Source of the DNA: Spirochaetales bacterium
Lineage (GTDB): Bacteria; Spirochaetota; Spirochaetia; DSM-2461
Direction of reading: 5' to 3'
Assembly (NCBI GenBank): GCA_028532905.1
Contig: JAQQAM010000113.1
Span: 1-36,760, forward strand
DNA length: 36,760 nucleotides
The position numbers were made by a program, and so were the translations under genes. How positions within the stretch are numbered: position 1 is the stretch's first letter; every line of letters begins with the position of its first letter. Positions 1-21,792 of this stretch are shown here, piece by piece. Below the pieces are notes generated by a model. It ran no database searches and had not been told where the DNA came from. It saw nothing but the letters and a program-made list of their open reading frames with translations.

Positions 1-880
1 AGATATCCAGGGCATCCACTCCCAGGTCTTCCAGGGCTTTGTCTATTCTCACACCCAGCTCTACTGTGATTCCCGGCCGGTCACTCCCCGCCGGACGGAA
101 CTCATCCACAGTCAGGCGGACAAGAACAGGATAATCCCGGCCGCAGGCTTCTCTAACGCCCTGAATGATCTCCTTCAGAAAACGGAGCCTGTTGTCAAAG
201 CTGCCGCCGTATTCATCCTCTCTTCTGTTGGTATAGGGGCTGAGAAACTGCTGAATCAGATAGCCGTGGGCGGCATGAAGCTCCACCGCATCAAAACCCG
301 CCTTCCGGGCCCGAACCGCTCCTTTCACAAAGTCATCCACCAGAGACCGGATTTCACTGGTTTTAAAAGCCCGGGTTTTCTGCTTTACATGAGCGCAGGG
401 TACAGCCGACGGTGCGGCCACAGGAGGCGCCCAGGTATGATCTTCCAGCCAGGCAAAACTCTTCACCACCGGAGAAAATATTTTTTTGAATCCCGGAACC
501 CGGGAAAAGACTTCCACCATGGGCCAGATCCCGATGAGGGCGGAATAATTCTGCCGTCCGGGATGGTGAAGCTGAAGGGCAATCTTTCCTCCTTCGGCAT
601 GAATACGACCGGTCATTTTTTTGAAGGCCTTGATGGAGGAGTCATGGACCAGAGAAAGCTGGCGGGGGGCTGCCGCACCGTGGATATTGTTCACCCGGCA
701 GATTCCCGTACAGATCAGACCGACCCCTCCTCTGACTCTCTGTAGATAGTAATCGGTCAGAAGGTCTGTGGGCCGGCCGTCAAATCCGGCCATTCCCGTT
801 TCCATGGATGTCATAACAAATCTGTTTTTCAGGGTCAGAGTCCCGATCTGAAAGGGCGTAAAAAGAATATCCTGGTTCAT
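1..880 (-). CDS. Old Yellow Enzyme family NADH:flavin oxidoreductase, C-terminus cut by window edge
   Basis: About 293 N-terminal residues are present and the frame is open to base 1. The protein begins MNQDILFTPFQIGTLTLKNR, the usual opening of OYE and 2,4-dienoyl-CoA reductase-like FMN barrels, and later carries the family segment AVELHAAHGYLIQQFLSP with the active-site His pair. The ATG at 880 follows a clear GGAGG. Family knowledge: an FMN TIM barrel that reduces activated C=C bonds with NAD(P)H. The C-terminal Fe-S/FAD part of the longer subfamily would lie outside the window, so subfamily and substrate are open. It is downstream of the transketolase/aminotransferase operon in the same direction but separated from it by a terminator-like hairpin, so it may be transcribed on its own. 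Confidence 0.88.
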   Translation of the reverse strand, partial: MNQDILFTPFQIGTLTLKNRFVMTSMETGMAGFDGRPTDLLTDYYLQRVRGGVGLICTGICRVNNIHGAAAPRQLSLVHDSSIKAFKKMTGRIHAEGGKIALQLHHPGRQNYSALIGIWPMVEVFSRVPGFKKIFSPVVKSFAWLEDHTWAPPVAAPSAVPCAHVKQKTRAFKTSEIRSLVDDFVKGAVRARKAGFDAVELHAAHGYLIQQFLSPYTNRREDEYGGSFDNRLRFLKEIIQGVREACGRDYPVLVRLTVDEFRPAGSDRPGITVELGVRIDKALEDLGVDALDI

Positions 881-933
881 AAGCCTCCGGAAGAGGCCTG
901 AAACGACCCCTTTATTTAATTTCTGGTATTTGT

Positions 934-939
934 ATTATA
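934..939 (-). promoter_or_regulatory. possible -10 element for the OYE gene
   Basis: A perfect TATAAT on the minus strand lies just after the terminator hairpin and about 54 bases before the OYE start. No convincing -35 box is seen 16-18 bases upstream, so this is tentative. Confidence 0.3.
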
Positions 940-943
940 AGTG

Positions 944-965
944 AAAACTGCCCCGGCGGGGGCAG
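944..965 (-). terminator. intrinsic terminator after the VOC gene
   Basis: On the minus strand CTGCCCC and GGGGCAG form a 7-bp GC-rich stem with a 4-base loop, followed directly by TTTT. It lies 39 bases past the stop of the VOC gene and marks the likely end of the main operon transcript. Confidence 0.7.
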
Positions 966-1004
966 AATATTTCAGGTGGGTCCTGAATCGTCAGAAAACC
1001 CTTT

Positions 1005-1547
1005 TCAGGCAGACTCACCGGCCGGTACAGGCACTTCATTATAGTAGGACTTGAACGGTCCGATTCTCATAATAAAACCCGCCAGCCGGGTCAGGCGCCT
1101 GAGGAGAAAATAGTTGAACTTCAGATCAATCAGCTCGATCAGATTACCGTCGGGATCTCTGAAGAAGAACCATTCGTTTCCATCGGTTTTCTGGGGAGGA
1201 CAAAGGATCTCCACATCATCCCTGGCCGAGAGTTTTTCATGCCATTTCCTGATATTTTTAGCATCCAGTGTAAAGTGGGTCACCCCTGGAGCATTCCATC
1301 TGTGAGAAGGGGCCTCTGTTCTGGAGAACTCGAAGATTTCAATCACTCCGCCTTTGGGGCAGAGCAGAAATCCGAGGCGCACAGAACAGTCTTCCAGCTG
1401 ATACAGCTCTTTTTTGACTTCCAGCTCCTCCTTGCTCATCTCGGTGACATTGACCAGGGGCATTTTAAAAACCTCCCAGTACCACCGGGCTGTTTTTTCA
1501 AGGCTGCGGACGGTTATCCCCGCATGGCTTAATGACTTGATTCTCAT
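1005..1547 (-). CDS. VOC (glyoxalase/bleomycin-resistance fold) family protein
   Basis: 180 residues from the ATG at 1547, which follows AGGATGG; a TTG at 1577 would add ten residues but lies inside a hairpin. Two beta-alpha-beta-beta-beta modules are visible: SHAGITV near residue 7 and GVTHFTL near 88, with RDPDGNLIELID near 130. His8, Glu70, His91 and Glu138 sit where VOC metal ligands normally lie. Known family roles include glyoxalase I, extradiol dioxygenase and epimerase, and the sequence does not say which applies. A C-terminal tail of about 40 residues (YFLLRRLTRLAGFIMRIG) is basic and hydrophobic, which is unusual for a soluble VOC enzyme and might touch a membrane. It is the last gene before the terminator, 70 bases after the second SCP2-like gene. 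Confidence 0.82.
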   Translation of the reverse strand: MRIKSLSHAGITVRSLEKTARWYWEVFKMPLVNVTEMSKEELEVKKELYQLEDCSVRLGFLLCPKGGVIEIFEFSRTEAPSHRWNAPGVTHFTLDAKNIRKWHEKLSARDDVEILCPPQKTDGNEWFFFRDPDGNLIELIDLKFNYFLLRRLTRLAGFIMRIGPFKSYYNEVPVPAGESA

Positions 1548-1564
1548 AGTATTTCCATCCTGTA

Positions 1565-1583
1565 GAGGCTTTTTCAAAGCCTC
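1565..1583. repeat. short perfect hairpin between SCP2-like gene and VOC gene
   Basis: GAGGCTTT and AAAGCCTC form an 8-bp stem with a 3-base TTC loop. On the plus strand a T-run follows after four bases, so it resembles a plus-strand terminator, yet no plus-strand gene leads into it. On the minus strand it lies in the spacer and contains the TTG alternative start of the VOC gene. Confidence 0.5.
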
Positions 1584-1617
1584 AATGATTTTTTTTAAGA
1601 AACTCAGACTCCCTGTT

Positions 1618-2436
1618 TCAGCCGGGCTGAATCAGGGCTCCGATCATCAGCATATGATCCCCCAGCTGGGAACCGTACTCGGGAGCTCCTTCCATAATAA
1701 TCTTTCCCTTCACTGTGGACTCGATCATATCGTCTATACTCAGAAGGATTCCCAGAGCACTGGGTACGGTGTCGAATTTCATGGTAAAGAAGGGCATGCT
1801 CCGTCTGTAGACACCCCGGGATGCCTTGCTTTTACCGGCTTTAATCCGGATGTAGGCAGCCAGATCCTCATCTTCCCCCACACGCCAGGCATAGACCCGG
1901 TCCGGGCTCTTTTCGGTCCACTTTTTAATTTTGGGATGGCCCAGTTTATTGAGAGTACTGATTCCGGTGGACAGGAGATTGAACATGCACTTCACCAGGA
2001 GATTCTGATCCTCTTCACTTTTGGGAGGTTTTGTAGAGCCAAGCAGTCCGCCCATGGTGATCAGGGCCTGCATAAAGGGGAGAAACATTCCCTTCCCTTT
2101 AAACACACCTTTCATCGCCGGAAAGGGGATCTGTTTCCCCTTGAAAAAGTTGTTCAGGTGTTTTCTGCTTTTAAAAACCAGCTCCACATCGGGCTTCTCT
2201 TCACTGAGCCCTCTCTTCACACTCCAGCTGCCCTCTTCAATCAGAAAATGGGTTCCGTCATCCCCTTCATCGAAAGGACCCGCCATACAGCGGATCTGAC
2301 AGATACCGTTTTTTCCTTTCCATCCCTTCTGAAGGGAAGCCTTTCCCTCCACAACGGTTTTGAGAACGGGGAGAACCGCATTCAGAAAAATCTTATTGGC
2401 ATAATACTCATCGCTTTGTCTGTAGTCTTCACTCAT
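1618..2436 (-). CDS. SCP2-like (sterol carrier protein 2 fold) protein, second copy
   Basis: 272 residues with no signal peptide or membrane segment. Two SCP2-type modules can be read: one around PDVELVFKSRKHLNNFFKGK (about residues 81-100), the other near the C-terminus with a hydrophobic strand, a serine-rich turn and KGKIIMEG. It shares this layout, and the pattern of a basic FKGK/LKGF loop before a FLPFM or GPFMK helix, with the protein at 5629-6384. The family fold binds lipids or other hydrophobic ligands in a cavity; the ligand here is unknown. It starts 3 bases after the transketolase C-subunit stop, so it is co-transcribed. Assignment to SCP2 rests on motif pattern alone and is moderate. 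Confidence 0.62.
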   Translation of the reverse strand: MSEDYRQSDEYYANKIFLNAVLPVLKTVVEGKASLQKGWKGKNGICQIRCMAGPFDEGDDGTHFLIEEGSWSVKRGLSEEKPDVELVFKSRKHLNNFFKGKQIPFPAMKGVFKGKGMFLPFMQALITMGGLLGSTKPPKSEEDQNLLVKCMFNLLSTGISTLNKLGHPKIKKWTEKSPDRVYAWRVGEDEDLAAYIRIKAGKSKASRGVYRRSMPFFTMKFDTVPSALGILLSIDDMIESTVKGKIIMEGAPEYGSQLGDHMLMIGALIQPG

Positions 2437-2439
2437 GGC

Positions 2440-3447
2440 TTAAATCTCATCATCCCAGTCATCGTCTTCCTCGAAATCCGCACCCATCAGTTCCCGGGCA
2501 GATGCGAGAATGCCGTTCACGTCGTAACCGTAATGGGACATCAGGTCTTCATGGAGACCGATAATACTGAAGGTATCGGGAACGCCCAGACGCTTGAAGG
2601 CACAGGCTTTTCCGCTTTCCGCCATGACCTCGGCAACAGCCGATCCCAGGCCGCCGATCACATTGTGGTCTTCCACGGTGATGATTCTTCTGGTGTCGTG
2701 CACCGCCTTGAGAATGGCTTCCCGGTCAATGGGCTTGATGGTATGCATATTCAGAACCCTGGCTTTCACACCATCCACAGATTCCAGAACTTTCGCTGCC
2801 TCCCGGGCCGACCAGACGGCACTGCCGCAGGCAATGATGGTCAGGTCTGTCCCTTCATGCATCTGGACAGCCTTGCCCAGCTCATAGCCGTACTCGGTAT
2901 TATCATACACCTTCTGGTCAAAACCTCTGTTGATTCTGATATAGACAGGTCCGGGAGTCTCATAGGCCGCCTGTACGGCATTGGCCGTTTCCATGCCGTC
3001 TGCAGGAATGATGACCTTGCAGTTAGCCATGGAGCGCATAATGCTGATGTCTTCTGTACAGTGATGGGTTGTTCCGGCCTGCCCGAAAGAGAGGCCGCCG
3101 TGGGTGGCAATCATCTTCACATTAAGGTTTTGATAGCAGATATCCGTATGGACCTGATCCAGAGCCCGCATGGTCATAAACACCGCAAAGGTTGAAACAA
3201 AGGGAACCATTCCGTTCAGAGCCATTCCCGCTGCAGCTCCCAGCAGATTCTGCTCGGCAATGCCCACATTGATCAGACGTTCGGGATATTTTTCTCCCAG
3301 AACACCGATCTTGGTGGATTTGGCCAGGTCAGCGGTCAGCCCCACAACCTCTGGATGCTCTTCTGCCAGATCACAGAGAGTTTTCCCGTAGAGTTCGGCT
3401 GTGGAAAGTTTTGCCGTATCCAGTATTGTATAATTCAATCCGCCCAT
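2440..3447 (-). CDS. transketolase, C-terminal subunit (pyrimidine-binding and C domains)
   Basis: 335 residues, the usual size for the C half of split transketolases. GIAEQN (residues 62-67) contains the conserved glutamate (Glu65) that activates thiamine diphosphate. FAVFMTMRALDQV, HGGLSFGQAGTTHHCTED and INRGF follow, as in the Pyr domain of transketolase and DXS-like enzymes. The C-terminal domain carries VEDHNVIGGLGSAVAE. The start follows GGAGGTG. It lies two bases after the N-subunit stop, so the two make one enzyme. Family role: reversible transfer of a two-carbon ketol unit between a ketose and an aldehyde. The tail is unusually acidic (FEEDDDWDDEI). No other pentose phosphate gene is nearby, suggesting a dedicated rather than housekeeping role. 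Confidence 0.92.
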   Translation of the reverse strand: MGGLNYTILDTAKLSTAELYGKTLCDLAEEHPEVVGLTADLAKSTKIGVLGEKYPERLINVGIAEQNLLGAAAGMALNGMVPFVSTFAVFMTMRALDQVHTDICYQNLNVKMIATHGGLSFGQAGTTHHCTEDISIMRSMANCKVIIPADGMETANAVQAAYETPGPVYIRINRGFDQKVYDNTEYGYELGKAVQMHEGTDLTIIACGSAVWSAREAAKVLESVDGVKARVLNMHTIKPIDREAILKAVHDTRRIITVEDHNVIGGLGSAVAEVMAESGKACAFKRLGVPDTFSIIGLHEDLMSHYGYDVNGILASARELMGADFEEDDDWDDEI

Positions 3448-3449
3448 TC

Positions 3450-4310
3450 TTACACCTCCGCCCCTATTCTCTGATCATGGTATTCATCGATTTCCCGCAT
3501 GCACTGTTCCTGCTTTTCACCGTCAAAACCGGCATAGTGATAGCGGTAATCATCGGTGATATGGGCCACGCCGCAGCCTTTCTTGGTCTGCATAATAATC
3601 ACAGAAGGTTTATCCTCTGAATCCATAGCGGTTTCCAGAGCGTCGGAGAGCTGATTCAGATCATTTCCGTCCTTCACATTGATCACTCTGAACCCGAAGG
3701 CTTCCCATTTTTTATCCAATGGTTCCAGGCCCATCACTTCTTCGGTCCGGCCGTCCATCATGCAGTTGTTCCGGTCGATGATGGGAATGACGCTGGTCAG
3801 CTTATAATGGGCAATGGCCATGGCGGCTTCCCAGTTGGAACCTTCATTGCTCTCCCCGTCTCCGATAAGGCAGAAGGTTCTGAAGTTCTGTTTCTTCAGC
3901 CGGGCAGACATGGCCAGTCCGAAAGCCAGGGGCAGTCCGTGTCCCAGAGAACCGGAGGATGCATCCAGTCCGGGAACCTTGTTTTTATCCAGATGCATTC
4001 CCAGCTGGCTGTGGGTATGGTTGAAGGTCTCCAGCCACTCCATGGGAAAAAAGCCCTTGTCCGCCAGAACAGGGGCGAATCCCACACCAATGTGGCCCTT
4101 GCTCAGGATAAACCGGTCCCGGTCTTCCCACTCGGGATTGGCCACATCGATATTCATATATTTGTGATACAGAAGGGTCAGCATATCAATGGCGGACAGA
4201 GAGCCCCCCACATGACCGCTGCCGGCCCAGACAACCGTATTGATAATCAGTTTTCTGAGGTCCCTGGCTTTCTGTTCCAGCCTCAGATACTCTTCTTTCT
4301 GCAATGGCAT
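3450..4310 (-). CDS. transketolase, N-terminal subunit (thiamine diphosphate-binding)
   Basis: 286 residues, typical for the N half of split transketolase. SGHVGGSLSA (31-40), SKGH (70-73), GSLGHGLP (120-127) and the thiamine diphosphate/Mg motif GDGESNEG with a downstream NN pair (150-182) are all present. The start follows AGGAGAGATA. The product should pair with the adjacent C subunit to form the alpha2beta2 active site. It is 21 bases downstream of the aminotransferase. Split transketolases are common in anaerobes and are also recruited to specialised pathways such as aminosugar or sulfosugar metabolism; which applies cannot be told from sequence. Confidence 0.92.
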   Translation of the reverse strand: MPLQKEEYLRLEQKARDLRKLIINTVVWAGSGHVGGSLSAIDMLTLLYHKYMNIDVANPEWEDRDRFILSKGHIGVGFAPVLADKGFFPMEWLETFNHTHSQLGMHLDKNKVPGLDASSGSLGHGLPLAFGLAMSARLKKQNFRTFCLIGDGESNEGSNWEAAMAIAHYKLTSVIPIIDRNNCMMDGRTEEVMGLEPLDKKWEAFGFRVINVKDGNDLNQLSDALETAMDSEDKPSVIIMQTKKGCGVAHITDDYRYHYAGFDGEKQEQCMREIDEYHDQRIGAEV

Positions 4311-4331
4311 ATTATCTCTCCTGTTTGAGTA

Positions 4332-5615
4332 CTATTTATTCAACCTTCCCGGGTTATTGCGGGCGACCACGGAAAAAGCTTCCGCCGCTACAGTGATGGT
4401 TTCACTGATATCATCATCCGTCAGAGAACAGTTGATGAAATGATTGTGGTGACTGGTGAAAAACACTCCCCTTCTGGCACACTCGGCGGTAAACTCCTGC
4501 TGCATCATCAGAGAATCATCGTTTGTCAGCCTCATATAGAACATGGAGGGCACTCCGGTCACTTTCAGATCCAGATCTGCAGCGGCTGCGGCTTTTACCA
4601 GTCCGTCTGTCAGTTTCTTCCCTTTCTCTATCATCAGATTGGCTCCGTCCAGACGCTTGAGCTCATTGATACAGGCGATTCCTGCAGCCATGGGGGCGGC
4701 ACTGGACCAGTAGCTTCCCGTGTAGAACACTTTGGAGGCTGCATCCTTCAGGGAGTCTGCACCTACAACTGCCGAGATGGGATAACCGTTGGCCAGAGCC
4801 TTGCAGTAACAGGTCAGGTCCGGTTTGAAACCGAAATATTTTGCCGATCCGGCAAGGTCCAGGCGGAAACCGCAGCGCACATCATCAATAATGAGGACAA
4901 TACCGTTCTCATCACAGATTTTGCGGATTTTCTGCCAGTACCCTTCTTCGGGAAGGGCATTGTCGGCAAAGACTCTGTGGTCATAGGGGGTGGCCATAAA
5001 GGCGGCAATTCTTCCGGGGTACTGTTTCACCAGCCTTTCCACGGCGGCTGCATCATTCCAGGGTACGATCAGGTTATTGGCCACATCCCCTTCAGTAATA
5101 CCCGCATGGGTAATGGGCTGGGTCCAGGGGGCAACACCATGGTATCCTCCCTGTACAGTGATAACCTTGTCCCGGCCGGTTGCCGCATGGGCGATCATTC
5201 TGGCAAAACTTGTGGCGTCTCCACCGTTTTTCATAAAAAACGCCCAGTCGGCGGCCTCGATGGTATCCACCAGGAGCTCTGCGAACTCTACCTGCTTTCG
5301 GCCGGGGAGGGCCATACAGTTGCCCTTGTCATACTGCTCTCTGGCAGCCTGATCCACGGTGTCGTTGTTGTATCCCAGAACATTGGGACCGTAGGCGCAC
5401 ATGTAATCGATGAATCTGTTGCCGTCCAGATCCCAGAAATAGGAGTCCTTTACCTTCTCTGCATACAGGGGAAAGGCGCTTGTGGGGATAAACTGGGACT
5501 GTACAGGTCCCAGATGACCGGGAATTCCGGTGGGTATCACTTTCAGGGCTCTCTGAAAGAGCTCATTGGATTTTGTATAGCTGTTGAGAGCCTTTGCTTC
5601 TTTTGTTTCTGTCAT
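4332..5615 (-). CDS. class III PLP-dependent aminotransferase, glutamate-1-semialdehyde aminomutase-like
   Basis: 427 residues, normal for the family. The N-terminal part (FWDLDGNRFIDYMCAYGPNVLGY, about 60-82) and the PLP-phosphate/ring segments (NGGDATSFARM at 130; GGYHG at 156) are conserved. Asp244 in IIDDVRCGFR binds the PLP nitrogen, and Lys272 in CYCKALANGYPISA is the Schiff-base lysine. Canonical members read NSGTEA and DEV; here they are NGGDAT and DDV, so it is a divergent branch and not HemL, which would sit with haem genes. Family role: transfer or shift of an amino group on an aldehyde or ketone substrate. Position next to the transketolase subunits suggests they act on consecutive intermediates. 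Confidence 0.88.
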   Translation of the reverse strand: MTETKEAKALNSYTKSNELFQRALKVIPTGIPGHLGPVQSQFIPTSAFPLYAEKVKDSYFWDLDGNRFIDYMCAYGPNVLGYNNDTVDQAAREQYDKGNCMALPGRKQVEFAELLVDTIEAADWAFFMKNGGDATSFARMIAHAATGRDKVITVQGGYHGVAPWTQPITHAGITEGDVANNLIVPWNDAAAVERLVKQYPGRIAAFMATPYDHRVFADNALPEEGYWQKIRKICDENGIVLIIDDVRCGFRLDLAGSAKYFGFKPDLTCYCKALANGYPISAVVGADSLKDAASKVFYTGSYWSSAAPMAAGIACINELKRLDGANLMIEKGKKLTDGLVKAAAAADLDLKVTGVPSMFYMRLTNDDSLMMQQEFTAECARRGVFFTSHHNHFINCSLTDDDISETITVAAEAFSVVARNNPGRLNK

Positions 5616-5628
5616 TGTCTGCTCCTTA

Positions 5629-6384
5629 TCAGGCGAGGTACAGGGGAATCATATCCAGCAGGGGATTCATATTATCCAGCATAGGGATGAATCCGCGCAT
5701 GGACATCTCCCCGTTGCCGAGACCGGTGAATGTATCCAGTTTGCCGTTTAGAACTTTGTGGGCCGATTCCAGGCTGCTGAAGGAGAGTATGGCCCGGGGG
5801 TCCTCATGATGGCCTTTCACACAGCTGAGAACTCCCTTGTTCACATGAAGCTGTACGCCGATGCCCTCTTCCACCCGTACCTGCAGAACGCCATCGGGCA
5901 TATGAGACGCACTGAGTTTACCCTTCCTGTCATGGTTTCCGATTTCCGCCAAAGCAAAAAAAGCTGTATAGGCTGTCATTTCAGTATTGATCCTGAAGTA
6001 TTCCGGATCATCCAGCAGGACACCTTCGGGGCGCAGATAATAATTCAGTTTGTCCGCCAGTTTCATGAAAGGACCGGTGAGAAATCCGATTTTAGTGAAT
6101 CCCTTCAAAGGAATGGGATTCCCCGAGCCGTCGATCATTTTATTGAAATGCTCGGGTGAGGTGAAATACAGAAGGATGGTGCTCTTGTGCTTCCCTTCTT
6201 TCATCTGAACCTTCCCATCCCGGAAACTCAGATTCCCTCTGGGTCCGTCTTTTACATTGAACTGAATGGAGAGGTTTGTATCTTTAATCAGCTCAGCACA
6301 TTCACTGTCATGCTCGGCCAGATATTCAATGCCTCTGAGAACAGCAAACAGATTGCATCGGGCCAGTACGTTTGAATCAGCCAC
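5629..6384 (-). CDS. SCP2-like (sterol carrier protein 2 fold) protein, first copy and operon leader
   Basis: 251 residues from a GTG at 6384 placed five bases after GGAGG; an upstream TTG at 6402 would be in frame but lies before that ribosome site. Two SCP2-like modules: STILLYFTSPEHFNKMIDG with a FLTGPFMKLADKL helix (about 70-115), and a clearer C-terminal one, AILSFSSLESAHKVLNGKLD followed by LGNGEMSMRG and a leucine/methionine-rich end. No export signal. It looks paralogous to the protein at 1618-2436. Such folds carry or present hydrophobic ligands. It is the first gene of the operon, 13 bases ahead of the aminotransferase, downstream of a promoter and a 12-bp palindrome likely bound by the divergent TetR protein. 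Confidence 0.66.
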   Translation of the reverse strand: MADSNVLARCNLFAVLRGIEYLAEHDSECAELIKDTNLSIQFNVKDGPRGNLSFRDGKVQMKEGKHKSTILLYFTSPEHFNKMIDGSGNPIPLKGFTKIGFLTGPFMKLADKLNYYLRPEGVLLDDPEYFRINTEMTAYTAFFALAEIGNHDRKGKLSASHMPDGVLQVRVEEGIGVQLHVNKGVLSCVKGHHEDPRAILSFSSLESAHKVLNGKLDTFTGLGNGEMSMRGFIPMLDNMNPLLDMIPLYLA

Positions 6385-6410
6385 TTTTTCCTCCTGTAAC
6401 AAAAAAGAAT

Positions 6411-6422
6411 GCGAGCGCTCGC
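6411..6422. promoter_or_regulatory. probable TetR operator (12-bp perfect palindrome)
   Basis: GCGAGCGCTCGC is a perfect GC-rich palindrome in an AT-rich stretch. It sits just downstream of the predicted start of the leftward transcript and upstream of the first gene's ribosome site, where a bound repressor would block transcription. Confidence 0.55.
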
Positions 6423-6431
6423 TCTCATTTC

Positions 6432-6459
6432 ATGATACAATGGATCCTTCAGATTGCAA
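6432..6459 (-). promoter_or_regulatory. sigma70-like promoter of the transketolase/aminotransferase operon
   Basis: On the minus strand TTGCAA (6454-6459) and TATCAT (6432-6437) are 16 bases apart. Transcription would begin near 6425, giving a leader of about 40 bases that contains the 12-bp palindrome. Confidence 0.5.
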
Positions 6460-6495
6460 GAGCTTTCTGCAATTAACCGCAAGGACTTGCGAAAT

Positions 6496-6523
6496 ACCTG
6501 TGAATTTGCAAGAATTCACAGGT
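6496..6523. promoter_or_regulatory. inverted repeat upstream of tetR, possible second operator
   Basis: ACCTGTGAATT and AATTCACAGGT are perfect 11-base arms around a 6-base spacer. It lies 40 bases before the tetR start and overlaps a plausible plus-strand promoter (TTGCGA, 17 bases, AAGAAT), which fits autoregulation. A TTGCAAGA element inside it also occurs at 6454-6461. Confidence 0.5.
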
Positions 6524-6562
6524 AAGAAACAGAATTTTCCCACAGAATTGTAAGGAACAGTA

Positions 6563-7240
6563 ATGAAAAAAAGCGGTGAAACCGGTTTAAACGAGCATTT
6601 TCACAAAAAAACCTTTGAAAATATACCGGCAGAGAAACGGGAGAGAATCCTGAATATTGCCATAACCGAGTTTGCCTCCAAGGGATATAACGCCGCCAGC
6701 ATCAATACAATAGCCAGAAATGCGGGAATCAGTATCGGGGGAATGTACCGGTACTTTGAATCCAAGGAAGCCCTGATTATGACCGTTCTGGACAGGGGAT
6801 ATGTGCTTCTGGAAAAAGCCCTGAAAGAAATAGTCGAAATGGAGGGAGACATTCTGACACGCATTGAGGCCATGCTCCGCACCAGTATGGCCTATGCCCG
6901 GGAATACAGAGAGATAAATCAGATCTACCTGGATGTTTCCACCGAAGGCCTGAGCTCCCTGGCAGGCAGGATCTCCCTGAAAATGGAGGGGATAACATCC
7001 GAGCTTTACAGAAAATCCCTGGAGGAAGCCAAAGCCGAGGGTATCGTCCGAGGCGAGGTTCATCCCGGGATTCTGGCCTTCTGCCTGGACAACCTTGTCA
7101 TGATGGTCCAGTTCTCCTGTGCCAGCGCCTATTACCGGGAGCGTTTGAAAATCTATGCCGGTGAAGATGTAGCCGATGACGACGACGCCCTGATTGAAGG
7201 GATAATGGATTTTGTTAAATACGGCCTGCTGAAAATCTAA
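6563..7240 (+). CDS. TetR/AcrR family transcriptional regulator
   Basis: 225 residues. The N-terminal domain has the family pattern: RERILNIAITEFASKGYNAASINTIARNAGISIGGMYRYFESKEAL covers about residues 26-72 and contains the helix-turn-helix. The C-terminal ligand and dimer domain is not assignable to an inducer. AAGGAA precedes the ATG. It is divergent from the leftward operon with two palindromes in the 178-base gap, so it most likely represses that operon and itself in response to a small, perhaps lipophilic, molecule (inference). Its 3' end lies five bases from the convergent nucleoside hydrolase. Confidence 0.92.
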   Translation: MKKSGETGLNEHFHKKTFENIPAEKRERILNIAITEFASKGYNAASINTIARNAGISIGGMYRYFESKEALIMTVLDRGYVLLEKALKEIVEMEGDILTRIEAMLRTSMAYAREYREINQIYLDVSTEGLSSLAGRISLKMEGITSELYRKSLEEAKAEGIVRGEVHPGILAFCLDNLVMMVQFSCASAYYRERLKIYAGEDVADDDDALIEGIMDFVKYGLLKI

Positions 7241-8240: not shown

Positions 8241-9098
8241 TCAGATTGTCTCCAGAGCCTTCTTCCAGCCCAGGTTTTCAAAAAAATCCGCCTCCGCAAC
8301 AGATGGGATTTCCCTGTTCGAGAGGGACTGAACAATTTTTTTATTGAATGGTATTTTCATAAGAACAGGAACCCCGTTCTCAGCGGCAAAATCCTCAATA
8401 TCCCGGCAGACGTCTTCGGAGAGGTCGGCTTTATTAATGATGATAAAGACTGCGGGATTGAAGCGGAGCACCATGGAATACACCCGTTTCAGATCATAGA
8501 GACCGGAGAGGGTCGGTTCTGTGACAATACACACTGAATCAGCACCGGTCACAGAAGAAATAACGGCACAGCCTATTCCAGGAGGGCCGTCTATGAGGAT
8601 TCCGGTTCTGCCTGTGGCTTCTGCCAGTTCTCTTGCGGCACCGCGGACTCTGGAAACAAGACGGCCGGATGTCTCCTCACCGGGAATCAGACTGGCATGA
8701 ACCAGAGGGCCGTAGATTGTTTCTGACTCATAGACCTTTCCGACAACCGCATCTTCCAGAGTCATGGCATTTTCGGGGCACACATGGACACAGACAGCGC
8801 ATCCTTCACAGGAAGGGGCATGCACTGAAAAGTCCCCTTTAATGGCACCAAAACGGCAGGAAGCCAGACATTGACCGCAGCCGCTGCACAAAGAGCTATT
8901 ATGAACGGCTCTTTGCAGCCCGCTGAACTCTTCCTCTTCTACTGTTTCTCCCTCAAGGAGTATGGAGAGATTGGGAGCATCCACATCGCAGTCGGCAAAA
9001 ACGGCATTGTCCATAAAGGGGACAAGAGAGGCTGTGAAGGATGTTTTTCCTGTCCCTCCCTTTCCTGAAATAACAACTGTTTCTTTTATTTTATTCAT
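8241..9098 (-). CDS. MinD/Mrp-type P-loop ATPase with inserted two-cluster ferredoxin domain (first of pair)
   Basis: 285 residues. Deviant Walker A SGKGGTGKTS (11-20), then CSGCGQCLASC (71-81) and CEGCAVCVHVC (97-107), two 4Fe-4S ferredoxin motifs, then the switch region DGPPGIG and a NKAD guanine-type motif. This is the layout of the ATPase pair in the ORP (orange protein) clusters of anaerobes, related to Mrp/NBP35 cluster carriers. Likely role: ATP-driven assembly or transfer of a metal-sulfur cluster together with the neighbouring NifX-type proteins (family inference). Its ATG overlaps the stop of the upstream paralogue by one base. Confidence 0.88.
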   Translation of the reverse strand: MNKIKETVVISGKGGTGKTSFTASLVPFMDNAVFADCDVDAPNLSILLEGETVEEEEFSGLQRAVHNSSLCSGCGQCLASCRFGAIKGDFSVHAPSCEGCAVCVHVCPENAMTLEDAVVGKVYESETIYGPLVHASLIPGEETSGRLVSRVRGAARELAEATGRTGILIDGPPGIGCAVISSVTGADSVCIVTEPTLSGLYDLKRVYSMVLRFNPAVFIIINKADLSEDVCRDIEDFAAENGVPVLMKIPFNKKIVQSLSNREIPSVAEADFFENLGWKKALETI

Positions 9099-9952
9099 CA
9101 GACTGCCACTCCCGGCATTCCGGCTTTCCGCTTCATGCCATCCATTATTTTTCTGTATTCCTTCTGCAGTTGTGGTGAGACAGAGTCAAGCATGACCCCG
9201 GTAGCGTATGCACCGGCCAGCTCCAGACTGAAGGGGATCTCTCCCAGAATGTCTATCGATTCATCCCGGCAGTAGTCATAGACACCCCGGTCTCCCATAC
9301 CCGCCTTGTTGATTACCACGGCAAAGGGGAGTTTCATGGTTCTCAGCATCTCTACAGTCCGTTTCATATCACTCAGGGCAAAGGGAGTGGGTTCTGTTAC
9401 AATGACGGCCAGATCGCAACCTTCAACGGCAGCCACTGTGGTACAGGAGGTACCGGGGGGACTGTCAATGATCTGCAATGCCTCAGTTCTGTCCATGGTT
9501 CTGATTCTGTCGATCAGGGGAACCCCGGAAAACTCTCCCACATCCATTTTGCCAGAGATAATGGGACTGCCGAAGCGTGTTATCCCCCTACTCACATAAC
9601 CGATAATCCTCTCCCTGTAGCGGATGGCATCAGACGGACAGACAAGTGCGCAGCCGCCGCAGCCATGGCAGATCTCCTTCATGGAAATGGTCAAAGCTTT
9701 GCCGGCAATAAGGGCATTGAAGCGGCAGAAGGCGGCGCAGTTCCGGCAGTGGGTGCATTTATCATTGTCAATTTCCGGATAGATTACAGATACGGGAATC
9801 CGGTCATTCCACTCAGGATTCAGGAACAGATCACCGTTGGGCTCCTCCACATCCATATCCACATATAGAGCGTCAGGAAACAGTGCCGCCAGATGGGTGG
9901 AGACAGTGGTTTTACCTGTCCCCCCCTTGCCGCTGAGAATTGCTGCTTTCAT
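9098..9952 (-). CDS. MinD/Mrp-type P-loop ATPase with inserted two-cluster ferredoxin domain (second of pair)
   Basis: 284 residues, paralogue of its downstream neighbour. SGKGGTGKTT (7-16) is the deviant Walker A; VDMDVEEPN follows. Ferredoxin motifs use Cys66, 69, 72, 76 and Cys95, 98, 101, 105. DSPPGTSC and the VINKAG motif complete the ATPase. In both copies the ferredoxin insert comes between the first strand and the switch region. The two may form a heterodimer. It starts six bases after the NifX-like gene stop, so it belongs to the five-gene transcript read leftward from 11118. Confidence 0.88.
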   Translation of the reverse strand: MKAAILSGKGGTGKTTVSTHLAALFPDALYVDMDVEEPNGDLFLNPEWNDRIPVSVIYPEIDNDKCTHCRNCAAFCRFNALIAGKALTISMKEICHGCGGCALVCPSDAIRYRERIIGYVSRGITRFGSPIISGKMDVGEFSGVPLIDRIRTMDRTEALQIIDSPPGTSCTTVAAVEGCDLAVIVTEPTPFALSDMKRTVEMLRTMKLPFAVVINKAGMGDRGVYDYCRDESIDILGEIPFSLELAGAYATGVMLDSVSPQLQKEYRKIMDGMKRKAGMPGVAV

Positions 9953-9958
9953 ACGGCA

Positions 9959-10324
9959 TCAGGCCCTGTGCATTCCGGCAACCGAAGCCTTCTGCTGCTC
10001 TTCCAGCCGATGGTTTTCCCATGCCTTAATGGCCTTATCAGGAAGAGTTATACTTCCCTGCCTGAAAACGGAGATGTTCATGGCCTGAAGAGCATCCATG
10101 GCCTGAGGGCCCACATCCGGAGCAATCAGGACTCCGGTTCCGAAATTGACCAGAATCTGCACAGCCTGGGCTCCGGCACCTCCGGAGGCATCCTTTGCAC
10201 TGTTGCTGACTGTTTTAAATGTTCTTTGATCCGTGTCAAAGAAAAGAAAATGAGAACAGCGGCCGAAGCGGCTGTCCAGTTCCGCCTGATCATCGAAACC
10301 AGTACTGCAGAGAGCGACAATCAT
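9959..10324 (-). CDS. NifX/NifB-C family (dinitrogenase iron-molybdenum cofactor binding fold) protein
   Basis: 121 residues. The small ribonuclease-H-like fold is recognisable: MIVALCSTGFDDQAELDSRFGRCSHFLFFD, GGAGAQAVQILVNFGTGVLIAPDVGPQA and a final helix. DSRFGRC matches the family signature around the cofactor-binding site. Related proteins bind Mo-, Fe- or Cu/Mo-sulfur clusters (NifX, ORP). No nif genes are in the window, so a nitrogenase role is not supported. It overlaps the DUF5320 gene by four bases (ATGA). Confidence 0.85.
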   Translation of the reverse strand: MIVALCSTGFDDQAELDSRFGRCSHFLFFDTDQRTFKTVSNSAKDASGGAGAQAVQILVNFGTGVLIAPDVGPQAMDALQAMNISVFRQGSITLPDKAIKAWENHRLEEQQKASVAGMHRA

Positions 10325-10692
10325 GCTCTGTCTCCCTTGAGAGTCCGTAATTCTGATTCCAGGGATTCTATCCGGTTCAGCAGGGTGTCTACTGAAAAGT
10401 CCCCTCCGGCAGCCCGGCCTCTTCCGTATCTCTGACCCGAAGCGTATCCCTGACCCACTGCGCGGCCCTGACCTCTACCGAGACCCTGTCCGGCACCGCA
10501 GCCCCTGCCACGCCCCCGGCCCTGTCCGGCACCGCGTCCATTTCCGTTTCCGTTTCTATTGCCGTGTCCGAATCCACCACCGAAACCGCCACCTGCAAAT
10601 GCTGTCTCTGACAGAGAGTCTCTCTTACAATTCCCCTGTCCGCGGCCTGTAAGTGGCCCCTTGTTTTCCGGTCCCATTCCATTTCTGTTCAT
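10321..10692 (-). CDS. DUF5320-type Gly/Arg-rich small protein
   Basis: 123 residues from the ATG at 10692, which follows AAGGAAG. The N-terminal signature MNRNGMGPENKGPLTGRG followed by QGNC is typical of DUF5320 proteins found beside NifX-like and ferredoxin-ATPase genes. The middle (about 40-95) is low-complexity, built of GRG, GQG and GNGNG units, with one further Cys in RGCGAGQ. The end is a short coiled-coil-like helix (LLNRIESLESELRTLKGD). Function unknown; the context suggests a metal-cluster or scaffold role. Confidence 0.8.
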   Translation of the reverse strand: MNRNGMGPENKGPLTGRGQGNCKRDSLSETAFAGGGFGGGFGHGNRNGNGNGRGAGQGRGRGRGCGAGQGLGRGQGRAVGQGYASGQRYGRGRAAGGDFSVDTLLNRIESLESELRTLKGDRA

Positions 10693-10728
10693 GGTTTTCT
10701 TCCTTATCTTAAAAATCTTATTTGACAG

Positions 10729-10751
10729 CAAAGGCCGTCATACAGCCTTTG
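10729..10751 (-). repeat. intercistronic hairpin between NifX-like and DUF5320 genes
   Basis: CAAAGGC and GCCTTTG form a 7-bp stem with a 9-base loop in the 75-base gap. There is no T-run, so it is more likely an RNA-processing or stability element than a terminator. Confidence 0.4.
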
Positions 10752-10767
10752 TGATCCCTGCAGCGGT

Positions 10768-11118
10768 TTAATGGTGGTGGTCACAGACAGAGCCGGTTGA
10801 CTCCAGATTTCCTTCCATATAAACCTTCAGACACTCTTCAATGGTCCCCCGGGCTCCCAGGATGACTTCGATATCATTATCCTTGAAGATCTGAACAGCC
10901 ATGCCGCCCATACCTCCGGTCACAATAGCGGTAGCCCCCTGTTTTTTAACAAACTCGGGAATCACTCCCGGTGCATGGGGAGGGGGAACGATGTAATCTG
11001 TGGTTTCGACTTTACCGTCTTTCACCACAGCAAAGGCAAACTCCTTCGCATGTCCGAAATGCTCCTCTACATTAATTCTGTCGTTAGTGGGAAAGGCCAC
11101 TTTCATAACTGCTGACAT
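10768..11118 (-). CDS. NifX/NifB-C family protein with C-terminal CDHHH, first gene of the ORP-like operon
   Basis: 116 residues. MKVAFPTNDRINVEEHFGHAKEFAF is the characteristic N-terminus with the EHFGHA cofactor-site motif, and GATAIVTGGMGGMAVQIF matches the second half of the fold. It ends in CDHHH, a likely metal-binding tail. The ATG at 11118 follows GGAGG by six bases; an inner ATG at 11106 is less well placed. It directly follows the strong inverted repeat at 11136-11168, so it is first in the regulated transcript. Confidence 0.87.
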   Translation of the reverse strand: MSAVMKVAFPTNDRINVEEHFGHAKEFAFAVVKDGKVETTDYIVPPPHAPGVIPEFVKKQGATAIVTGGMGGMAVQIFKDNDIEVILGARGTIEECLKVYMEGNLESTGSVCDHHH

Positions 11119-11135
11119 ACAATACCTCCATAATT

Positions 11136-11168
11136 ATTGTGCATATGCCCAATGAGCATATGCACAAT
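11136..11168. promoter_or_regulatory. 33-base inverted repeat, probable operator of the DUF134 regulator
   Basis: ATTGTGCATATG and CATATGCACAAT are perfect 12-base arms around a 9-base spacer. Each arm also contributes to a self-complementary GCATATGC (11141-11148 and 11156-11163), 15 bases apart, so two dimers could bind side by side. It lies 17 bases before the NifX-like start and 95 before the DUF134 start. Confidence 0.65.
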
Positions 11169-11263
11169 ATACACCCACACAATCGTAAAAGCAAGATCAG
11201 AAAGAGAGAATTTAAAAGAGTTGTTAACTTTTTAGAGGGATTAGACTATTATGAAGATCATAT

Positions 11264-11560
11264 ATGCCCAGACCATACAAAAACAGAAAGTGCAGAAATC
11301 TCGATGCCCGGCGCAATTTCAAGCCATCGGGTATACCTTCAAGGGAACTGGAGACTGTAGAACTTAATCTGGATGAATTTGAAGCCGTCAGACTTTGTGA
11401 CTATGACGGACTGAACCAGATTGAAGCGGCCGAATCCATGGAAGTCTCCAGAGCCACCGTGCAGAGACTGCTCCAGTCCGGGAGAAAGAAAATTGTTGAT
11501 GTTCTGCTGAATACAAAGGAGCTTCTGATTCACCAGAATCAGGACGATTCTAACGGGTAA
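11264..11560 (+). CDS. DUF134 family HTH regulator
   Basis: 98 residues, the usual size. It opens MPRPYKNRKCRN and contains FKPSGIPSRELETVELNLDEFEAVRL followed by DYDGLNQIEAAESMEVSRATVQRLL, a sigma-factor-like helix-turn-helix at about residues 48-72. DUF134 genes habitually flank ORP/NifX clusters, as here. No strong ribosome site is seen, and the leader is about 100 bases. Probable role: control of the divergent metal-cluster operon via the palindrome at 11136-11168. The 3' end overlaps the convergent oxidoreductase gene by 11 bases. Confidence 0.87.
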   Translation: MPRPYKNRKCRNLDARRNFKPSGIPSRELETVELNLDEFEAVRLCDYDGLNQIEAAESMEVSRATVQRLLQSGRKKIVDVLLNTKELLIHQNQDDSNG

Positions 11561-18400: not shown

Positions 18401-18868
18401 TCAGAAATGACTGCGGAGGTCTGCCATTTCCAGCGCGCTGGCGGCGGCCTCCCAGCCCTTGTTCCCCGCCTTGCTGCCGGCTCGCTCCAGGGCCTGCTCC
18501 AGGGTATCGCATGTGAGGACACCGAAGCTCACAGGAACGGCGGATTCCAGTGAAACGGAGGCCACCCCCTTGGAGACTTCGGCGCTCACATAATCAAAAT
18601 GGGGGGTCCCCCCCCGGATCACGGCCCCCAGACAGATCACCCCGTCGGGTTTTTCCGCAGCAGCCCAGCTGGCGGCCAGGGGTATCTCAAAAGCTCCCGG
18701 TACCCGGACAGTTCTGATATCCTTCTCCTCCACGCCATGCCGGACCAGGCAGTCCTTTGCCCCCTCCTCCAGCCGGGATGTAATGATGTCGTTGAAACGG
18801 CTCACCACCAGGGTAAAGCTGTATCCCTCTCCTTTCAGTTTACCTTCGCGAATTGTATTGTTACTCAT
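18401..18868 (-). CDS. ribH: 6,7-dimethyl-8-ribityllumazine synthase
   Basis: 155 residues, standard length. [40 protein letters not shown] (with the catalytic His) and [17 protein letters not shown] are the classic signature stretches. It condenses 5-amino-6-ribitylaminouracil with dihydroxybutanone phosphate. It is the last gene of the riboflavin operon, 109 bases after ribBA, with a terminator-like hairpin in that gap. Its stop lies two bases from the stop of the convergent phosphorylase gene. Confidence 0.97.
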
Positions 18869-18912
18869 CTTTTTCTCCTGATACGGGCCTTAAGCCCTAT
18901 ATTATTTTCTGT

Positions 18913-18937
18913 AAAAATGAGGCCCCTGAATGGGCCT
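18913..18937 (-). terminator. terminator-like hairpin between ribBA and ribH
   Basis: On the minus strand AGGCCC and GGGCCT form a 6-bp stem with a 6-base loop followed by CATTTTT. It may partly terminate before ribH. A smaller GGGC/GCCC stem lies between it and the ribH ribosome site. Confidence 0.5.
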
Positions 18938-18977
18938 TGAGCCTTGCAGAACCCTCGCAGTGCCCGCCAGAGTTTGC

Positions 18978-20192
18978 TCAGGCAGACAGGTGCCCCATGC
19001 GCAGCTGTTTTGTTTCCATGTATTTTCTGTTGTGATCTCCGGCTTTTGAAAGAAGTGCTATTCTGTGGACTCTGATCCCGGCCTCTTCCATCTGGGCGAT
19101 CTTGTCCGGATTATTGGTCATCAGCCTGATTTCCCTGATCCCTTTCCGTTTCAGATACGCCGCAGCCTCACCATAGTCCCGGTCATCTGCGGGATAGCCC
19201 AGATGGAGATTGGCATCCAGAGTATCCATCCCCTCCTCCTGAAGCCGGTAGGTTTTCATCTTGGCCCGGAGGCCGATTCCCCGTCCCTCCTGTCTGAGAT
19301 AGATCAGGTAGCCCTGTCCTTCCGCACTGATCTGCTTAAGAGCTTCCTCCAGCTGGGAACCGCAGTCGCAGCGCCGGGAGCCGAAAAGATCCCCTGTAAG
19401 GCATTCGGAGTGGATACGCACCAGAGGAGCCCGTGAAGAGCCATCTTCAGGAAAGGTTTCTTCCTGAATATCCGAACCGGAGTAACCGGGAAAAAGGGAA
19501 AAGTGATCATGGGTACTATCACTGCTCAGAAACTCCATCCGGAAATCTCCCATTTCCATGGGTAGAGTGACCGGTTCCTCTGCCTGAGCCGCCTCATGAT
19601 TCACCAGATCCTGAACCGACAGAACACCCATATTCCACTCGGCTGCCAGTTCATCAATGCGCCGGCCTCTGACCATCCCGCCGTCATCATCCATCATTTC
19701 ACAGATAACAGAGACCGCCGGCACACCGGCCTGCCGCATCAGATAGAGGGAGCCTTCCGTATGCCCCTGGCGTACAGCCAGTCCTCCGGGCGCTTCGAGG
19801 ATGGGAAACATATGTCCGGGCCGGGCAAACTCTTCGGGTCTGGAGTCCGCAGCCGCCAGCCGCTTGAGGGTTACGGATCTGTCATAGGCAGAAATACCGG
19901 TGGTACAGTTTTCAATGACATCCACAGGAGTCATAAAACGTGTTCCGTGAATGGCCTCCGGCCCTCCGGAGACAGGAAGCAGTTCCAGTCCGGCCTGATC
20001 CGCATGAGTCTGATCCATGGCACAGCAGATCAGTCCTTTGGCCCGGCTGGCCATAAAATTGACCATATCCGGCCCCGCATGGACGGCAGCGCCCACCAGA
20101 TCGCCTTCATTCTCTCTGTCCTCATGATCGGTTACGATTACCATTCCTCCCTCTGCGATTATCTTTGCCGCTTCTTCGACTGTTACTTTCAT
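18978..20192 (-). CDS. ribBA: bifunctional dihydroxybutanone-phosphate synthase / GTP cyclohydrolase II
   Basis: 404 residues from the ATG at 20192, chosen because it gives an ATGA overlap with the ribE stop and follows GGGGG; an ATG at 20204 is less well placed. The N-half is RibB (DHEDRENEGD at 22-31; acid-rich active site). The C-half is RibA with HSECLTGDLFGSRRCDCG, whose three Cys bind zinc, and RQEGRGIGL. It supplies both precursors of riboflavin from ribulose 5-phosphate and GTP. No catalytic residue appears lost. Confidence 0.96.
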   Translation of the reverse strand: MKVTVEEAAKIIAEGGMVIVTDHEDRENEGDLVGAAVHAGPDMVNFMASRAKGLICCAMDQTHADQAGLELLPVSGGPEAIHGTRFMTPVDVIENCTTGISAYDRSVTLKRLAAADSRPEEFARPGHMFPILEAPGGLAVRQGHTEGSLYLMRQAGVPAVSVICEMMDDDGGMVRGRRIDELAAEWNMGVLSVQDLVNHEAAQAEEPVTLPMEMGDFRMEFLSSDSTHDHFSLFPGYSGSDIQEETFPEDGSSRAPLVRIHSECLTGDLFGSRRCDCGSQLEEALKQISAEGQGYLIYLRQEGRGIGLRAKMKTYRLQEEGMDTLDANLHLGYPADDRDYGEAAAYLKRKGIREIRLMTNNPDKIAQMEEAGIRVHRIALLSKAGDHNRKYMETKQLRMGHLSA

Positions 20193-20836
20193 ACATACCC
20201 CCATTGCAGCAGCTGCTGCTCTGTTATTGTTGATTTTTGTTTTGAGAATTCCCCGGCTCCCCTGGCGGGCCGGTTTCTGAGGAGAAGATCCCCCTCTACA
20301 TTGACTTTTTCACCCCTGTGCAGACTCCCCAGCAGGCTGGTCCTCAGAGTCTCCCCGATGAGCTGGATGGAAAAGCTGTGTTCCTCCAGAGTTGCCACCG
20401 TCAGACTGACACCGTCCAGAGCCACAGAGCCCTCCCGGCAAATTTCAGTTCTGAGGGATTCAGGCAGTTCCATTGTCAGGGATCTGCCCCTGCCGGCAGG
20501 CCGGTTTTCCATGACAGAGGCCATGGCACTCACATGCCCCTGAACCAGATGACCGTCCAGAGGATCAGAGAGGGTCAGAGCCGGCTCCAGATGAACCTTC
20601 TGTCCCGGACGGCAGAACTGCAAAGTACTTTTTTTCAATGTGGCATAGTGGCATTCTGCAGAAAAAAGGCGTCCGTCAGCTCCCGGCAGAACCGTCAGAC
20701 AGACTCCCTGTACCGCAATGGATGCCCCGGCACGGGGAGCCCGGGCAAAATCATGGGCCAGTGTCAGAACTCTGGATTCCCTGCCCTCCCGGACCGAGCG
20801 GATCACACCCAGATGACGAATCAGACCTGTAAACAT
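20189..20836 (-). CDS. ribE: riboflavin synthase alpha chain
   Basis: 215 residues. It begins MFTGLIRHLG and has two lumazine-binding repeats; the second starts at GHLVQGHVSAMASV, with DGVSLTVA matching the earlier VQGVCLTVL. It dismutates two lumazines to riboflavin. It overlaps ribD by 16 bases and ribBA by four, so translation is probably coupled. The C-terminal tail (STITEQQLLQWGYV) matches the usual family end. Confidence 0.96.
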   Translation of the reverse strand: MFTGLIRHLGVIRSVREGRESRVLTLAHDFARAPRAGASIAVQGVCLTVLPGADGRLFSAECHYATLKKSTLQFCRPGQKVHLEPALTLSDPLDGHLVQGHVSAMASVMENRPAGRGRSLTMELPESLRTEICREGSVALDGVSLTVATLEEHSFSIQLIGETLRTSLLGSLHRGEKVNVEGDLLLRNRPARGAGEFSKQKSTITEQQLLQWGYV

Positions 20837-21792
20837 CCGACAGCCTCCCTGTATCCGTTGATCTCGGTATCCCGGCCGCAGAGACGGGACTCCTGATCCT
20901 GCAGAACCACTTTCTGATTCATGTTTCCGATTCCCAGATCACCGCAGAAAGGAATCCCCCGGCCCAGAAAGTCGGGAGACTGAAAAACCGTCAGCCGGTC
21001 CCAGAGACCGCTTCTGAAAAAGGCATTGAATATTCCGCTCCCCCCTTCCACAAGGAGCCTGTGGATTCCCCGGGAACGCATCTGTTCCAATTGATTCTTG
21101 AGAGGGCCTTCCCGGTGGGATAAAATAATCTTCTCAGGCTGATGCCCCTCCTGCTCCCGGCCGGCATCATCCCGCACAGTCAGGGAGGGATTGTCCGCCT
21201 CCCATGTGCCCCGCCCCACAGCCACAGCATCCGATTCTCTTCTAAAAGACATAACCCGGCGTCTGGATTCAGGACAGCTGATCCATTTCGAAGAGCCGTC
21301 TAAGGCGGCAATAAAACCGTCCATTGTCAGAGCGGCCTTGAGATGGACATAGGGTCGTTTCTGCTGGATCAGAACCTCATAGATTCTGTTCAGACTCCCG
21401 GCATCCTCTTCCATAATTCCGGTTTCTACACTGATGCCGGCTTTCTGCAGTGCAGAAATGCCCCTGCCCCTGACCAGGGGATTCGGATCGGCCCGGGCAA
21501 TGACAACACGGCGGATTCCGGCGGAAATGATTTTCTCTGTGCAGGGACCGTTGTGCTTGGTTCGGCTGGTAAAACTGCAGGGCTCCAGGGTGACATACAT
21601 TTCAGCTCCCGCCGGATCATGCCCCTTCAGTCTACAGTCCATCAGGGCATTTTCCTCGGCATGCCTGCCGCCGTACTCCTGGTGAAATCCCTCACCCAGG
21701 ACTTCACCGTCCCGGACAAGCAGGGCGCCCACCATCGGATTGGGCAGAACTGAGGTCTGCGCCTGTTCCGATAAGTACAGAGCCCGTTTCAT
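20821..21792 (-). CDS. ribD: bifunctional diaminohydroxyphosphoribosylaminopyrimidine deaminase / reductase
   Basis: At least 323 residues. The deaminase half has HAEENAL (44-50) and PC-x11-C zinc ligands (Cys72 and Cys84), and PNPMVGA near 17. The reductase half has ALTMDGFIA and LLVEGGSGIFNAFF. The first ATG is 21792, but family N-termini usually carry a D/E-x-F/Y-M stretch before RAL, and here the codons upstream encode LYKQDEQF in frame. A CTG at 21816 lies about seven bases after AAGGGAGA, so translation may begin there. It is first in the operon, under FMN riboswitch control. Confidence 0.94.
   Translation of the reverse strand: MKRALYLSEQAQTSVLPNPMVGALLVRDGEVLGEGFHQEYGGRHAEENALMDCRLKGHDPAGAEMYVTLEPCSFTSRTKHNGPCTEKIISAGIRRVVIARADPNPLVRGRGISALQKAGISVETGIMEEDAGSLNRIYEVLIQQKRPYVHLKAALTMDGFIAALDGSSKWISCPESRRRVMSFRRESDAVAVGRGTWEADNPSLTVRDDAGREQEGHQPEKIILSHREGPLKNQLEQMRSRGIHRLLVEGGSGIFNAFFRSGLWDRLTVFQSPDFLGRGIPFCGDLGIGNMNQKVVLQDQESRLCGRDTEINGYREAVGCLQV

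Follow-up and report, generated by a model that had tools for sequence, protein, structure and literature searches.

Sphingoid bases come from the host, the diet and Bacteroidota, and they influence the gut barrier and immunity. In the sphingosine-1-phosphate (S1P) lyase route, a kinase and a lyase turn a sphingoid base into a long-chain aldehyde, and the other two carbons leave as phosphoethanolamine. Further described systems resemble parts of the locus reported here, which lies in the window, the first 36,760 nucleotides of contig JAQQAM010000113.1 in the 4.98 Mb draft genome of a Spirochaetales bacterium (GCA_028532905.1). FumI-type aminotransferases, such as that of Sphingopyxis sp. MTA144 (PDB 6HBS and 6HBV), turn hydrolysed fumonisin, a sphinganine-like amine, into its 2-keto form (PMC9858248). 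The two-chain split transketolase of Carboxydothermus hydrogenoformans (PDB 6YAJ and 6YAK) takes bulky aldehydes (PMC7661550), and human MFE-2 SCP-2L (1IKT) and mosquito SCP-2 (1PZ4) represent the SCP2-domain lipid carriers.

In the window, relatives of these proteins are encoded side by side on the minus strand, in the order SCPa, class III aminotransferase (AT), the N- and C-terminal halves of a split transketolase (TKN and TKC), SCPb and a VOC-type protein, with intergenic gaps of 2-70 bases and a divergent TetR gene on the plus strand. This arrangement had been described in an earlier note made from the letters alone, and the positions of all genes were checked and borne out. We propose, giving it about an even chance, that the operon serves a TetR-switched breakdown of sphingoid-type 2-amino-1,3-diols (e.g., sphinganine) without S1P lyase. 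The gene block is well supported, as are the transketolase residue changes, the kinship of AT with FumI, the operators and the genes that accompany the module; from these we infer each chemical step. Compared with the S1P lyase route, the proposed net outcome is the same, a long-chain aldehyde from a sphingoid base; however, no kinase or lyase would take part, the amine would come off first, and the two carbons would leave as a ketol rather than as phosphoethanolamine.

A Five-Gene Module in Spirochaetota and Clostridia

We searched relatives of AT in contigs of one genome per species and found 80 loci in Spirochaetota and Clostridia; the module genes were located by tblastn with all window proteins, and further Spirochaetota genomes were reached via SCPb. 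The block SCPa-AT-TKN-TKC-SCPb is present in most of the 80 AT loci and again in the Spirochaetota genomes found through SCPb. Gene order and strand are identical in all loci with five complete genes (66/66, from both groups), and the median gaps in these loci are 2, 55, 3 and 22 bases. Moreover, pairwise distances among the five module proteins correlate with r of 0.85-0.98, compared with a permutation maximum of 0.27. The flanking genes in Clostridia are, by eye, mostly housekeeping (glyA, trpS, pyk, thyA, infC and murB) and, PntAB excepted, uninformative on function; the five genes therefore form a stand-alone module. The conserved co-occurrence in spirochaetes and clostridia to which the earlier note had looked is thus borne out for this block.

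The operon proposed in that note was wider than the conserved core. VOC adjoins the module in many Spirochaetota loci and was not seen in Clostridia loci, and the window-type TetR likewise recurs only among Spirochaetota loci, with homologs of 44-66% identity near the module in several families. Together with OYE, the gene after VOC, these two count as additions of particular lineages and lie outside the core.

The module is sporadically distributed. SCPb occurs in 32 of the 393 Spirochaetota genomes, and the sampled genus and family mates of the window genome are without it. Among 197 genomes from the order that includes Eubacterium coprostanoligenes, 7 have AT. The module is an accessory function. 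Partial forms are also evident. In 16 loci SCPa-AT has no adjoining transketolase, and 5 of those genomes bear a module-type TKC elsewhere. In a zinc-dependent alcohol dehydrogenase (Zn-ADH) variant, in some cases with an SDR (L136-L138 and L142), TKN-TKC-SCPb is kept and the FumI-like AT is replaced, which points to a substrate other than an amine for this transketolase core. TKN-TKC-SCPb also lies beside a tungsten-type aldehyde ferredoxin oxidoreductase (AOR) in L144, L146 and L149; in L144 and L149 a TetR and a different class III aminotransferase accompany it. As its partner enzymes vary in this way, the transketolase-SCPb pair looks like a core for lipid cleavage that various front ends supply.

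An Aminotransferase Close to FumI and Tandem SCP2 Carriers

AT (4332-5615, minus strand) is a pyridoxal-phosphate (PLP)-dependent class III aminotransferase by its Pfam match, which is over the cut-off, as are those of the transketolase, VOC and TetR; it reached no NCBIfam equivalog cut-off. In a phmmer search against solved structures, the best hit was the FumI aminopentol aminotransferase (6HBS, E = 2.4e-92, residues 14-420), followed by GSAM (4.2e-54); AT is therefore closer to FumI, which it resembles over nearly its full length, than to GSAM or any other class III enzyme of known structure. The motifs YMCAYGPN, KNGxDAT, DDVRxGFR and TGS(Y/F)WxSA are common to AT and FumI and lacking in GSAM in the printed alignments, and ANGY is also found in both AT and FumI. 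The first four motifs are largely conserved across the AT set. FumI uses a sphingoid-like amine; by homology, we propose that AT may act as a sphingoid-base:pyruvate aminotransferase, to which the alanine dehydrogenase association described below bears an indirect relation. To our knowledge, the fumonisin cluster holds neither a split transketolase nor SCP2 proteins.

The block is bounded by SCPa (5629-6384, minus strand), the first gene of the operon, with a GTG start and a Pfam SCP2 match of 24.5 bits (cut-off 21.3), and by SCPb (1618-2436, minus strand). SCPb itself has no Pfam hit; it is homologous to SCPa in a profile comparison (hhalign E = 1.7e-20), and 16 of 42 SCPb relatives match Pfam SCP2. 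The AlphaFold models of both proteins (pLDDT 92.7 for SCPa and 94.3 for SCPb) are tandem SCP2 folds. SCP2 folds are among the top structure matches of the SCPa model, and the SCPb model matches human SCP-2L with Z of about 12 and an rmsd of 2.8 over 113-114 residues; further matches include the SCP2-like domain of the alkylsulfatase SdsA1 and mosquito SCP-2, which was solved with a C16 fatty acid. Judged from these models, SCPa and SCPb likely bind a long-chain ligand. They share the fold of the 1IKT and 1PZ4 carriers but differ from them in having two domains per chain and in being encoded beside carbohydrate-type enzymes.

A hydrophobic amine other than a sphingoid base, such as an amino-polyketide, a capnine-like sulfonolipid or another long-chain amino alcohol, would also suit such proteins. 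The substrate of FumI itself is a polyketide toxin (PMC9858248), many lipids fit into SCP2 folds, and the Zn-ADH variant without the FumI-like AT hints that the transketolase core may serve non-amino substrates too. We consider this alternative unlikely, as a module so widespread, in anaerobes from two phyla, is more readily explained by a common lipid than by a rare toxin. Its hopanoid version is disfavoured: squalene-hopene cyclase over the cut-off is lacking in 43 of 44 module genomes, the window genome included, and the single match in the remaining genome is partial. On this ground a hopanoid or aminohopanoid (HpnO) route is rejected.

A Split Transketolase with an Altered Acceptor Pocket

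The transketolase is encoded as TKN, the N-terminal, thiamine diphosphate (ThDP)-binding half (3450-4310, minus strand; PF00456, 145.6 bits), and TKC, the Pyr and C-terminal half (2440-3447, minus strand; PF02779/PF02780), whose acceptor pocket is altered. The C. hydrogenoformans enzyme is the nearest solved relative of both halves, is likewise two-chain and has the same catalytic residues. Residues were numbered with Escherichia coli TktA as a ruler (numbering checked; the E. coli control gives R91, R358 and D469). H26, H66, H100, D155, N185 and H261 are invariant in the module TKN (76/76), and E411 and H473 in the module TKC (73/73). At the acceptor positions, all 76 TKN have R91 replaced by N and G262 by Y, and all 73 TKC have D469 replaced by A and L466 by F; R358 is replaced by A in 69 and by S in 4 of the 73. 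R358 is kept in all six TKC paralogs of the window genome (6/6) and in only 4 of 13 enzymes of the variants without AT. By these residues, the module enzymes appear equipped as transketolases for catalysis and ThDP binding and not for a sugar-phosphate acceptor (R91, R358 and D469).

In E. coli transketolase, D469 and R91 form a salt bridge (PMC5073344), so the pair is lost together in the module enzymes. The E. coli variants D469A and D469T show higher activity on propionaldehyde only, and not on glycolaldehyde (PMC3657141). The first of these engineered substitutions is the same as the natural one in the module; however, the engineered D469 variants were tested on short aldehydes, whereas the module change is natural and linked with those at R91, R358, G262 and L466. 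Similarly, the C. hydrogenoformans enzyme keeps GEDG (D469) and TRE (R358), whereas the module has A at both positions in addition to R91 to N and G262 to Y. Such a pattern would suit a working transketolase that takes as its partner an aldehyde without an alpha-hydroxyl.

These residues bear on the possibility of ordinary sugar or aminosugar metabolism, in which a pathway-specific split transketolase would work with a GSAM-like aminotransferase and the SCP2 proteins would be incidental. Split transketolases for sugars are common, several are present in this genome, and S385, H461 and R520 are retained in the module transketolase, where they may serve a small phosphorylated partner. Nevertheless, every complete block has two tandem SCP2 proteins, AT is nearer to FumI than to GSAM, and all three of D469, R91 and R358 are replaced in every AT-module enzyme, R358 being kept in the window genome's own TKC paralogs. 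A sugar role thus has very little chance of being correct. The relationship of AT together with the transketolase residues favours a long-chain, non-sugar substrate, and the amino-sugar link suggested in the earlier note finds no support.

That note had also allowed for this being the only transketolase of the genome. It is one of about eight transketolase paralogs, by which a housekeeping role is ruled out. The window genome (G000; L001-L007) shows an unusual expansion of the family, with at least six other split transketolases and one full-length.

Operator, Regulon and Direction of the Pathway

At the operon head lies a palindromic putative TetR operator (6403-6430), an inverted repeat just after the -10 box, with the core GAGCGAGCGCTCGC at 6411-6424. 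The core occurs once in the own 5 Mb genome and in a single place in each of two relatives, always at this operon, so TetR (6563-7240, plus strand; PF00440, 49.6 bits) looks like a dedicated switch of the operon that would act as its repressor by binding the palindrome. The protein belongs to the TetR family and scores 42.9 bits against the FadR-type family NF053878 (Bacillus fatty acid), below the cut-off of 200. A sigma-70-like promoter, TTGCAA-16-TATCAT (6432-6459, minus strand), matches the consensus at 9 of 12 positions; the number of such matches is at chance level, and what speaks for this one is that it lies next to the operator. A second inverted repeat with 12-base perfect arms lies near the TetR start (6495-6524). 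The promoter and palindromes reported earlier at this place are thus retained as one putative operator, a promoter match that alone is at chance level, and a plain repeat.

Related palindromes are found at the same position in ten other loci (L039, L040, L123, L127, L128, L131, L132, L134, L135 and L140), and other families carry GAGTAAGTACTCACT-type palindromes there. In a search for the GAGTAAGTACTCACT form in ten module genomes, 17 sites were found versus 2 with the reversed pattern. The own genome has no operator sites besides that of the operon, and in two further relatives (G309 and G245) the search yielded counts that did not exceed the control, or did so slightly. Apart from those at the module promoters, operator-type sites lie between a divergent thiolase and a beta-propeller-like gene in four genomes (L244, L246, L247 and L249), with an Omp85-family gene next where read, ahead of the PntAB transhydrogenase in G122, G117 and G143, and, in G007, in front of an alanine dehydrogenase that scores 527 bits as an NCBIfam equivalog (cut-off 392). 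Furthermore, in G317 the gene 33 bases ahead of SCPa, with the same orientation, is an alanine dehydrogenase, so it probably opens the operon there.

Genes adjoining the module include PntAB in Clostridia (L057, L058, L061-L063 and L070), an aldehyde dehydrogenase in L119 and L142 (L119 and L041 are apparently one and the same region of a genome), AOR in L039 as well as in the three loci named above, acyl-CoA and 3-hydroxyacyl-CoA dehydrogenases in L134, and an AMP-forming ligase in L131. The neighbours and the regulon fit a flow from aldehyde to acid and from amine via alanine to pyruvate. A lipoprotein-like sulfatase, possibly acting on a sulfated lipid, lies directly beside the module in two loci (L121, 11001-12572; L122, 4982-6568).

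The same chemistry could run in the building direction, with the transketolase adding a two-carbon ketol to a long-chain aldehyde and AT aminating the ketone, giving a sphinganine-like base without serine palmitoyltransferase (SPT). Both reactions are reversible in principle, and in the laboratory aminodiols are made by pairing a transketolase with a transaminase. None of the 22 module-bearing Clostridia has an alpha-oxoamine synthase above 24 bits, so they have no canonical SPT; relatives of this enzyme are found in most module Spirochaetota, by a search that does not separate KBL from SPT. Phytosphingosine has been reported from Flavonifractor plautii in one paper (PMC11914097). On the other side, alanine dehydrogenase and thiolase stand behind the same operator type, genes for aldehyde dehydrogenase, AOR and beta-oxidation adjoin the module, neither an acyltransferase nor a gene for making ceramide was seen among its neighbours, and its distribution is patchy. 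We regard synthesis as clearly improbable. The context and regulon genes, including acyl-CoA dehydrogenase, and the patchy distribution favour breakdown. The earlier note, which had spoken of making or modifying an aminated hydrophobic compound, is thus supported as to a dedicated, TetR-switched pathway for such a compound and was probably wrong about its direction.

A Candidate Route for Sphingoid Bases

In the proposed breakdown, the SCP2 proteins would hold or carry the lipid chain while the FumI-like AT uses pyruvate as amine acceptor, so that alanine and a 1,3-dihydroxy-2-ketone are formed. The split transketolase, from whose acceptor pocket the D469/R91 pair for sugar hydroxyls and a phosphate contact, R358, are gone, would then cut between C2 and C3 of the keto-diol; a long-chain aldehyde would be set free, and a small aldose would receive the two-carbon ketol. 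Depending on lineage, aldehyde dehydrogenase or AOR would oxidise the aldehyde, beta-oxidation would consume the acid, and alanine dehydrogenase would regenerate pyruvate. OYE could reduce the 2-enal expected from sphingosine. The substrate and the direction are inferred.

Several observations weigh against this scheme. The substrate assignment rests on homology to FumI, the reversibility of both enzymes applies here as well, and the retained S385, H461 and R520 remain to be accommodated. Among the 16 genomes (drafts) with SCPa-AT only, 11 show no module-type transketolase. Ordinary transketolase makes 3S ketols and natural sphinganine would give a 3R ketone, so the facial selectivity of the module transketolase must differ. 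In E. coli transketolase the selectivity is reversed by D469Y, and D469A showed no such effect (PMC3657141). On the supporting side, 8 of the 20 Spirochaetota genomes with the AT module have a neutral ceramidase, compared with 28 of the 373 without it (P = 1.3e-4, counted by genome); by genus, however, the association reaches only P = 0.057, and the own genome lacks a ceramidase. As to the end point of the route in Clostridia, most module Clostridia have neither ceramidase nor acyl-CoA dehydrogenase.

More broadly, and with slightly less than even confidence, we suggest that the module represents an undescribed route in which a transketolase acts on membrane lipids, deamination and ketol transfer dismantling (or, reversed, building) sphingoid bases in anaerobes with no need of S1P lyase and, in Clostridia, with no SPT, including gut species like E. 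coprostanoligenes, of which strain ATCC 51222 has the module (L102). Papers that tie the abundance of this species to sphingolipids are correlational and were not used as evidence. If true, this would name genes by which gut Clostridia and anaerobic spirochaetes control sphingoid bases without the enzymes usually searched for, and would provide a natural transketolase tuned to long-chain aldehydes, which is a goal of biocatalysis engineering. The combination of a FumI-like aminotransferase, a GQAG-type TKC and tandem SCP2 offers a genetic marker. No description of such a pathway was found in the open-access PMC literature, a search outside which subscription papers and bioRxiv lie. All parts belong to known families; their combination and the proposed chemistry are undescribed in the literature searched, and the pathway as such has a fair chance of being new as a category.

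Other Features of the Window

VOC (1005-1547, minus strand; PF00903, 59.4 bits) is a VOC/glyoxalase-fold protein. It is followed by a terminator-like hairpin (948-965, minus strand) of 7 pairs, 6 of them G-C, and a T run, and then by the OYE-family (NADH:flavin oxidoreductase) gene (2-880, minus strand), an open-ended reading frame truncated by the contig end. This OYE is 61-65% identical to the OYE genes that follow the module in L039 and L040 (685-693 aa, PF00724). In L040 VOC and OYE nearly abut, whereas the hairpin separates them in the window; OYE may therefore be a separate unit here.

Elsewhere in the window, an FMN riboswitch (RF00050, 105.8 bits) at 21993-22126 on the minus strand lies upstream of an apparent riboflavin gene set (18401-21792). 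Two small NifX-like proteins and a pair of MinD/ParA-like ATPases bearing ferredoxin-type cysteines are encoded at 8241-11560, along with a glycine-rich protein and a small regulator-like reading frame; the region was read by eye as a cluster of the iron-sulfur carrier type common in anaerobes.

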